NCBI RefSeq assembly: GCF_025643255.1
Contig: NZ_CP087112.1
Location: 1,860,001 to 1,924,000, forward strand
DNA from: Halomonas sp. 7T
GTDB lineage: Bacteria > Pseudomonadota > Gammaproteobacteria > Pseudomonadales > Halomonadaceae
Direction: 5' to 3'
Length of the DNA: 64,000 bases
Each line of letters begins with the position of its first letter. The stretch's first letter is position 1. Below, in pieces: positions 29,362 to 31,227 of the stretch. The notes beneath the pieces were generated by a model, which searched no databases, had not been told where the DNA came from, and was given only the letters and a program-made list of their open reading frames with translations. A program made the translations under genes and the position numbers.

Positions 29362-31227
29362 CTAGGACCGTGTGTCAGAGGCTGGCTTAACGGTTGATTC
29401 TATCAGCGTTGCCCCAAAGGCTTGCTGTAGCTTCTGTATATTGGGGTCGCGATGCAGTAGATCAACAGCCAACGCGTGGCGCTCTTGATGGAGGCGCTCT
29501 TCTTGCTGACGAGGCGTTTCCACATCAACCGCCAGTTCCGCTACCGTAAACTCTATGCGACGAGGGACGCCCTGTGCTTTAAGCGCTTTCTCGATGCGGC
29601 TTTGATGCACTTCCGCCTTCATAGCAGCTTGACCCGGGTCTAGCCGGAGCACCAGGGTATTGCCATCGTCACTCTCGACTTGGCAGTGCGCTGCTAAATT
29701 ACGCGTAAGACCGCCCAAGCCTAACGCATTAAACTGCGCTAGCCACTGTCGATGATCAAACAAGCTACCGTTATGAACGGCAAGCGGCTCTGGCTCTGGC
29801 TCTGGCTCTGGCTCTGGCTCTGGCTCTGGCTCTGGCTCTGGCTCTGGCTCTGGCTCTGGCTCTGAAGAGAGCATGGCGGCGTTTTCTACTTCATCAAGTG
29901 ACCAGGGCGGGGCTTGCTCATTTTTCTCAGCGGGGGCTTCTGGCGTTGGCGCCTCCTGCACAGCGGCCGGCGCAGGCGGATTAGCCTGGGCCACTGGCGG
30001 TGCAGGTTCAGGCTTTTTTGGCGCGGCTGGCTCGCCCATAGAGGCTGACTGCGCTGCTGCCCCACTAACGTCTTCAGCAGGCTCTGTGCGCAATGGCAAG
30101 GACACACGAGGCGGCTTGGGAACCCCTTGGGGACGAAACGCCAGCATGCGCAGCAGCGTCATTTCCAGCGCACTACGCAGGTCAGGCGCATGCACCATAT
30201 CGCCTCGGCCCTGGATGCCAATTTGGTAATAGAGCTGAATATCTTCAGCGGTAAAGCGGCTCGCTAACTGCTGAATTAGCGCGCGATCACCATGACTGTT
30301 ATCCACCGCATCGGGCACCATTTGCGCCACCGCCAAACGGTGTAAAATGGCGCTTAATTCGTCCAGCACTGCCGCAAAATCAGGCCCTTGCTCTGAAAGC
30401 TGGGCAACTTCTGCCAGTAACCGTTGCACATCGACATCTGCCAAGGCCTCGACTAATGCTAAGACATGCCGATGATCCAACGTGCCCAGCATAGCGGCGA
30501 CATCGGCATGACGCACGGCGCCTTGGCCAAAGGCAATGGCTTGGTCGGTCAGGCTCATTGCATCACGCATTGAGCCTTCGGCCGCCTTGCCTAGCAGCCA
30601 CAGCGCGCTCTCGTCATACCCGACCCCCTCTTCACCCAGCACATAGGTTAAATGCTCAACCACGCGCTCGGGGGGCATATGCTTCAACGTGAACTGCAAA
30701 CAGCGCGACAGCACCGTAGCAGGGAGTTTTTGCGGATCGGTGGTCGCTAGTAAAAACTTAACGTGGGGCGGTGGCTCTTCAAGCGTTTTAAGCAGCGCGT
30801 TAAAACTGCTGGTGGAGAGCATGTGCACTTCATCAATTAAGTACACTTTATAGCGCCCTTGGGTAGGCGCGTACTGAACGTTGTCCAGCAGCTCACGGGT
30901 GTCTTCCACTTTCGTGCGTGACGCTGCATCGACTTCGATCAGGTCAACAAAGCGGCCTTCGTCAATCGCCTTGCAGCTATCGCACTGACCACACGGGGTG
31001 GAGGTAATACCTTCATCGCCTCGGCCATTGGCAGTGCAATTCAGGCATTTCGCCAAGATACGCGCCAGCGTGGTTTTACCCACACCGCGGGTACCTGTAA
31101 ATAGGTAAGCATGATGTAAGCGGCCTTGATCAAGAGCATTGACCAAGGCGCGCTGGACATGGGCCTGGCCCACGAGCTCGTGGAATGTGCGCGGCCGCCA
31201 TTTGCGGGCCAGAACCTGATAGCTCAT
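29362..31227 (-). CDS. dnaX: DNA polymerase III subunits tau/gamma
   Basis: Clamp-loader ATPase. The full-length tau is 621 residues: Walker A GTRGVGKTT (45-53), zinc site with Cys 61/64/79/82/85, Walker B VYLIDEVHML (128-137), AAA+ lid and collar to about 365. A Pro/Ala-rich linker (about 365-482) holds thirteen Glu-Pro pairs, and the C-terminal tau domains follow. Codons 403-405 form an A AAA AAG slippery site followed by a hairpin; a -1 shift gives a 406-residue gamma form (see separate entry). It is first in dnaX-ybaB-recR. Confidence 0.97.
   Translation of the reverse strand: MSYQVLARKWRPRTFHELVGQAHVQRALVNALDQGRLHHAYLFTGTRGVGKTTLARILAKCLNCTANGRGDEGITSTPCGQCDSCKAIDEGRFVDLIEVDAASRTKVEDTRELLDNVQYAPTQGRYKVYLIDEVHMLSTSSFNALLKTLEEPPPHVKFLLATTDPQKLPATVLSRCLQFTLKHMPPERVVEHLTYVLGEEGVGYDESALWLLGKAAEGSMRDAMSLTDQAIAFGQGAVRHADVAAMLGTLDHRHVLALVEALADVDVQRLLAEVAQLSEQGPDFAAVLDELSAILHRLAVAQMVPDAVDNSHGDRALIQQLASRFTAEDIQLYYQIGIQGRGDMVHAPDLRSALEMTLLRMLAFRPQGVPKPPRVSLPLRTEPAEDVSGAAAQSASMGEPAAPKKPEPAPPVAQANPPAPAAVQEAPTPEAPAEKNEQAPPWSLDEVENAAMLSSEPEPEPEPEPEPEPEPEPEPEPEPEPLAVHNGSLFDHRQWLAQFNALGLGGLTRNLAAHCQVESDDGNTLVLRLDPGQAAMKAEVHQSRIEKALKAQGVPRRIEFTVAELAVDVETPRQQEERLHQERHALAVDLLHRDPNIQKLQQAFGATLIESTVKPASDTRS
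29785..29862 (-). repeat. Hexanucleotide repeat encoding (Glu-Pro)13 in dnaX
   Basis: Thirteen tandem copies of GAGCCA on the coding strand (the last ends CCG), giving residues 456-481 of tau. Copies are essentially identical at DNA level, a microsatellite likely to vary in number by slippage. Every change keeps the frame and only alters the length of the linker between the gamma part and the tau-specific domains. Confidence 0.95.
29955..30019 (-). other. Programmed -1 frameshift signal in dnaX (slippery site plus hairpin)
   Basis: Heptamer A AAA AAG at 30019-30013 in the zero-frame register CCA AAA AAG, the same heptamer and register as E. coli dnaX. Slipping back one base reads GCC and then TGA (30010-30008), giving a 406-residue product. 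Six bases downstream begins a hairpin with outer stem CCTGCAC / GTGCAGG (30006-30000 with 29961-29955), middle stem AGTGGC / GCCGCT (one G-U) and inner stem CAGGC / GCCTG. The upstream GGCGAG about 11 bases before the heptamer may act as the stimulatory Shine-Dalgarno. Confidence 0.8.

Follow-up and report, generated by a model that had tools for sequence, protein, structure and literature searches.

The closest described system is the dnaX gene of Escherichia coli, in which the heptamer A_AAA_AAG lies in frame, one codon is read in the -1 frame before a TGA and a hairpin stands straight after this TGA; the cited account of it gives a frameshift efficiency of 50% (PMC5009743). In Thermus thermophilus, a gamma-like short product is likewise described as arising from one open reading frame (PMC3711429, PMC5009743), and in Caulobacter, a proteobacterium, the same outcome is ascribed to proteolysis of tau (PMC5009743), without a recoding signal. 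In the cited part of one survey, nine genera are named for an E. coli-type logo and four genera for Recode-2 (PMC3711429), and a 2012 review states in its relevant passages that beyond enterobacteria and Thermus most bacteria lack a dnaX frameshift signature, and that dnaX of Pseudomonas aeruginosa, among others, gave tau only when expressed in E. coli (PMC3290774). There is still debate over what gamma does: gamma-less E. coli mutants are described, in the cited portions of two papers, as viable, UV sensitive and less prone to Pol IV mutagenesis (PMC10850973, PMC9522359). Among open-licence papers, we found none joining dnaX frameshifting with Halomonas, which does not imply absence from print, and none among them joining Halomonas with ribosome profiling and frameshifting.

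Here, we analysed a dnaX locus in the window, by which we mean the whole stretch of 64,000 nucleotides from Halomonas sp. 7T, and compared it with its relatives in Vreelandella, in the family Halomonadaceae and in the order. The site in this gene is very probably under selection as a signal for programmed -1 ribosomal frameshifting, of the type known from E. coli dnaX, and would serve to make a gamma-like subunit. The mechanism is already known from E. coli, and the predicted occurrence in Vreelandella is a further case of it; the main value of the finding lies in the patchy on/off distribution within one genus together with recurrence across the order. Natural clades of related species, some with and some without a complete selected signal, would allow the role of gamma to be compared between them, and not only through the E. 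coli mutant.

The dnaX gene and its predicted recoding elements

The features of the locus, in window coordinates, are as follows.

29362..31227, minus strand: dnaX, encoding the DNA polymerase III tau subunit, 621 aa (NCBIfam PRK07994, 792.8 bits; PF13177, PF22608, PF12169, PF12170)
30030..30037, minus strand: GGGCGAGC, a weak candidate for an SD-like stimulator, 10 nt before the heptamer
30013..30019, minus strand: slippery heptamer A_AAA_AAG in the zero frame, at codons 403-405 (CCA AAA AAG); carried by 26 of 82 genus loci
30008..30012, minus strand: remainder of the -1 frame Ala codon, which begins with the final heptamer base (G, 30013), followed by the -1 stop TGA (30010..30008)
30008..31227, minus strand: predicted gamma-like product, 406 aa, C-terminal Lys-Lys-Ala, with its first 405 codons in common with tau
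29955..30006, minus strand: predicted stimulatory hairpin, assessed by folding, pair counts, a synonymous-recoding control and model R1
29786..29864, minus strand: 6-bp unit repeated perfectly 13.2 times and coding for Glu-Pro, in the linker found only in tau and thus outside the gamma-like product

By Pfam matches, residues 21-363 contain domains I-III, the last of these occupying 238-363, and residues 493-613 are tau domain V; the frameshift site lies downstream of domain III. A -1 slip at 30019..30013 leads to GCC (Ala, residue 406) and then to TGA. This reading reproduces the original prediction, which had placed A AAA AAG in the register CCA AAA AAG, followed after the slip by one Ala codon and a stop at 406 residues, and had expected a protein of about 44 kDa ending in KKA; the mass computed from the sequence is 44.3 kDa, with a C-terminus of AAPKKA. 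With its end at residue 406, ahead of domain V, the short product would still contain the clamp-loader part but have neither the Glu-Pro linker nor the tau end, again as had been claimed. The Glu-Pro hexanucleotide microsatellite has a longest perfect run of 1 to 27 copies among the complete genus loci, with and without the heptamer alike; it maintains the frame, and copy changes would alter only the length of the tau linker.

Like E. coli dnaX, the locus has A_AAA_AAG in frame, one -1 codon, TGA and a hairpin directly after it, the sequence AAAAAAG-AGTGA-ACCGGC of E. coli corresponding to AAAAAAG-NNTGA-NCC in the genus loci that carry the heptamer (hereafter carriers). The position in the gene is also similar, the AAA codon being codon 429 in E. 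coli and 404 here. Both tRNA-Lys genes have the anticodon UUU, and no CUU was found among 60 tRNA places; a sole tRNA-Lys(UUU) is also stated for E. coli in PMC5009743, where this is suggested to be of possible importance for recoding at the ribosome as opposed to during transcription. Unlike that of E. coli, the hairpin here is longer, multi-tiered and of a different sequence. The claim that all elements used by E. coli occur together stands for the heptamer, the -1 stop and the hairpin, but is doubtful for the upstream SD-like stimulator, which is weak or absent: the best anti-SD duplex has -3.4 kcal/mol in the window versus -7.4 kcal/mol in E. coli in the same scan, its register varies among carriers and one carrier (L008) has none. 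The mean over the 26 carriers is -3.1 kcal/mol versus -0.9 kcal/mol at 319 other linker positions. The Rfam model of the DnaX element (RF00382), which scored 96.8 bits on E. coli as a positive control, gave no match in the window at the gathering threshold or at E <= 10; among 229 genomes of the class, one reached E <= 0.001, short of the cut-off, and the stretch examined there lacks AAAAAAG-NN-TGA.

We propose that ribosomes arriving at A_AAA_AAG would be slowed in translocation by the hairpin immediately downstream, that tRNA-Lys(UUU) in the P and A sites would then re-pair one base back (AAA, AAA), and that some ribosomes would read GCC and TGA and end at 406 residues, yielding AAA+ and collar domains that lack both the Glu-Pro linker and the C-terminal region of tau, while the remaining ribosomes would produce tau. 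Slippage, its efficiency and the entry of the short product into a clamp loader are what we infer from the sequence.

In-frame A_AAA_AAG occurs three times among the 42 mechanical ORFs of at least 200 aa in the window (17,689 codons), with -1 stops 1 (dnaX), 2 and 29 codons on. Immediate -1 stops are not rare in the dnaX linker, being present at 6.7% of 2,961 linker codons in carrier genes, so a single site with such a stop is unremarkable and the case for a signal rests on the retention of the immediate -1 stop by all 26 carriers, not on the window alone. The second in-frame A_AAA_AAG (window 17940, minus strand), whose -1 stop comes after 2 codons, lies in ORF 16026..20114, a frame of 1362 aa with helicase domains, OB_NTP_bind and DUF3418, the product of which is presumably HrpA-like.

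Joint conservation of heptamer, -1 stop and hairpin within Vreelandella

The genus sample comprised 82 genomes; dnaX was matched at E <= 1e-50 in 81 of them, and one of these had two loci, making 82 loci. With the N-terminal query, the in-frame heptamer was found in 26 of these (three of the 26 genes being incomplete), including those of Vreelandella lionensis and V. andesensis; it is missing from 51 complete and 5 incomplete or broken loci, V. nanhaiensis being among the non-carriers. The -1 stop lies exactly one codon on in 26/26 carriers, with predicted short products of 396 to 438 residues. Heptamer, stop and hairpin are conserved together in every carrier, as the original prediction had looked for, but they are limited to certain clades and to 26 of the 82 loci. 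The carriers are related to one another, so that counts of 26/26 are not independent events, and invariance of the final G in the heptamer is no evidence, the carriers having been chosen on it. Since 51 complete loci lack the heptamer, the signal is not needed genus-wide. In some genus genomes (L160, L161, L162, L119), dnaX frames are broken or end early, probably owing to assembly errors.

On a tree of N-terminal dnaX DNA (95 of 97 rows retained), the carriers fall into a clade of 22 and a clade of 4, corresponding to two changes; the clade of 22 also holds L156, which is too short to judge, and all of its 22 readable members are carriers. A single carrier clade was not rejected in a topology test (p-AU 0.186), and the carriers may go back to one or two origins within the genus.

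The hairpin is separated from the heptamer by a 6-nt spacer. It has a 7-bp outer stem (30006..30000/29961..29955) and a 5-bp top stem (29988..29984/29977..29973), with inner pairs between the two. Folding of 30012..29950 agrees with the three tiers described beforehand, with a 7-bp outer stem starting six bases downstream, and gives -33.0 kcal/mol versus -24.4 +/- 2.9 kcal/mol in dinucleotide shuffles (z -2.96), a stability equalled by 1 of 200 shuffles. When compared with synonymous recodings of the same residues, the carrier hairpins have a mean z of -2.48, with z <= -2 in 17 of 22 distinct carriers; those of L007, L008, L011, L023 and L118 lie less than 2 sd from the recodings.

Alignment A2 contains 20 distinct sequences, that is, the 26 carriers minus 4 identical stretches and minus L154 and L155, the hairpin of which is shorter than in the other carriers. 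The drawn structure is paired in 82.4% of the cells of A2 versus 31-41% with partners slid, and the covariation score of 0.159 was matched by 2 of 500 shuffles. Covariation is modest: neither the pairs changed on both sides (5) nor the further pair types (14) in A2 were in excess over shuffles (309/500 in both cases), and the covariation term of RNAalifold, which retained two top pairs as well as the outer stem, is only -0.05. The basal pair is G-C in 11, G-U in 2 and U-A in 2 of the 20 sequences and unpaired in 5, the window among them.

Model R1, which was built from A2 and thus trained on 20 of the 26 carriers, matches 26/26 carriers at E <= 1e-11. Across 275 family genomes, it ranked the 26 dnaX sites on top (E <= 1.4e-10), with the next match at 9.6e-6, and a strict sequence pattern was found in 22 of the 275, every one in the genus, versus 0 for the reversed control. 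R1 also picks out the E. coli site in a 3.2-kb search, with matching register but a weak score (E 1.4e-5). A stem-loop 5-6 nt downstream, as expected of an E. coli-type dnaX frameshift, is present here as a predicted and conserved structure.

Alternative readings of the site

Three other explanations were weighed, of which the one that survives best, improbable as we consider it, is that the signal is an inherited relic with frameshifting too low to matter. A weak SD-like stimulator would suit a relic, as would the absence of the signal from the 51 complete non-carrier loci of the genus and from 29 of the 30 genomes sampled in the rest of the family. Against it, none of the 22 readable loci in the main clade and none of the 4 in the second has lost the heptamer, the -1 stop or the match to the model, although synonymous sites elsewhere in the gene have changed.

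Transcriptional slippage, in which RNA polymerase would add or drop an A in the A6 run so that altered mRNAs yield the short product, is the way in which gamma is made from T. thermophilus dnaX according to the cited accounts (PMC5009743, PMC3711429), and here one extra A leads to the identical TGA. However, the run of 6 A is shorter than the 9 A reported for Thermus (PMC3711429), and a fixed-register downstream RNA hairpin is not needed for slippage of this kind. Moreover, Thermus dnaX has stops in both other frames, whereas in the A6G context of the window the -1 frame alone is constrained: the +1 frame has no conserved or selected nearby stop in the 26 carriers, the first one lying 5 to 119 codons on, so neither the run of about 9 A nor the paired stops of the Thermus type were found. 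We thus regard transcriptional slippage as very unlikely, and reject it as the main mechanism on account of the A6 run and the unconstrained +1 frame.

Codon choice at the site bears on a constraint at the level of the protein or its folding. Around the site, the linker is hypervariable, and Lys-Lys, mostly followed by Pro-Glu-Pro, is retained inside it. The codon 5' of AAA AAG specifies six different residues in the carriers (Pro 8, Ala 11, Ser 2, Thr 2, Val 2, Leu 1), and yet its third base is A in 26/26. The codon 3' of AAA AAG is CCT in 24 and TTT in 2, so that a Pro to Phe change leaves the third base T intact in 26/26, and the next codon is GAA in 3, GAG in 21 and GAT in 2, by which the -1 TGA is kept in every carrier. 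The two lysines are AAA AAG in 26/26 and are the sole Lys columns with an invariant third base in the 26 carrier genes, in which Lys codons number 234 AAA and 244 AAG. With the site set aside, 4 of the 122 four-fold columns of constant residue in the same genes and 3 of 42 Lys/Glu/Gln columns have a fixed third base, and one codon was kept in 0 of 10 other invariant Lys columns. Judging from these codons, the wobble-base invariance at the site is not required by the protein. Selection of a KKPEP motif, or of a pause for co-translational folding of the collar, with the -1 stop as a by-product, could explain the retained residues and, in the case of a pause without functional slippage, the hairpin too, but in the face of the fixed third bases it is the least credible of the three, with hardly any chance of being right.

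Because third bases are fixed while residues vary, we infer selection on the nucleotide sequence. Programmed -1 ribosomal frameshifting of the E. coli type, proposed originally from the window, is supported by co-conservation, wobble-base invariance, the hairpin z in most carriers and the sole tRNA-Lys(UUU), all of which are sequence-based lines of evidence.

Distribution beyond the carriers

Non-carrier loci were scanned for X_XXY_YYZ in codons 340-540 (52 of 56 loci), and only scattered motifs were found; the -1 stop comes at once or one codon on in L013, L115, L117 (C_CCA_AAG) and L126 (A_AAC_CCT). Searching for A_AAR followed closely by a -1 stop additionally returned L016, L123, L137, L146 and L153. 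R1 matched the non-carriers L117 (E 8.8e-5) and L115 (E 4.5e-4) weakly, probably through a Lys-Pro-Glu-Pro stretch. By analogy with Caulobacter, proteolysis could be a route to gamma in Vreelandella species without the heptamer. With respect to Pol IV, Y-family PF00817 is present in 82/82 genus genomes and thus gives no presence/absence contrast with the signal. A match was found in 246 phage records, in none of them above 60% identity or spanning 80% of the query.

The rest of the family was represented by 30 genomes from 23 other genera, 1 to 3 per genus, and the heptamer was found in one of them (G098). In this genome, which belongs to a second Halomonadaceae genus (L286 / L256), dnaX has A_AAA_AAG-CCTGA, so that the -1 stop is immediate, and the hairpin is strong; the site lies at codon 590 of 753, far nearer the tau end than in Vreelandella.

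Outside the family, we read two sets of loci: 60 (L052-L111) from the best 80 of more than 580 relatives, none with a Halomonadaceae name, and 26 order loci, the remainder of 30 from among 113 matching genomes once the 4 of these 30 that lie in the family are set aside. No locus was identical across the two sets in the first 600 bases; the loci are related, and both sets are biased to the nearest relatives of the query. The heptamer is present in 25 of these 86 loci, and in 12 of the 25 the -1 stop lies one codon on, compared with a background of 0.115 (binomial 6e-6); a per-locus test of the 13 carriers among the first 60 loci gave a much weaker combined p of 0.019. In L299, L307, L309, L317, L059, L064, L066, L071, L073, L077, L100 and L101, the -1 stop follows 2 to 6 codons after the heptamer, and in L065 18 codons after it. 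No heptamer was found in any Pseudomonas locus among the best 80 of more than 580 relatives.

For the history of the site, we lean slightly towards a cassette A_AAA_AAG-NNTGA-hairpin that is old in dnaX of the order, extends well past the enterics, has apparently been lost repeatedly (in Pseudomonas and most Halomonadaceae), to judge from its distribution, and was retained or regained in parts of Vreelandella; gamma would then be a clade-level switch, and the genus would contain sister clades that naturally make or lack gamma.

R1 is a genus model, since it is weak outside the family: in the 60 loci of the first set, its best match was L111 (5.6e-6), followed by L109 (6.2e-4), which has no heptamer, and L081 (0.013), the rest being weaker. 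Weak R1 matches on the opposite strand occur because a hairpin necessarily resembles its complement. At E <= 0.01, R1 matched 55 of the 275 family genomes in 63 places, 26 of which are the dnaX sites. Among 11 of the 37 weaker places that were examined, those in G098 and G151 lie in dnaX, with the heptamer in G098 only, and AAAAAAG-NN-TGA occurs outside dnaX in G147 and G027; among the other 26 weaker places, the one in G034 is the dnaX of L117.
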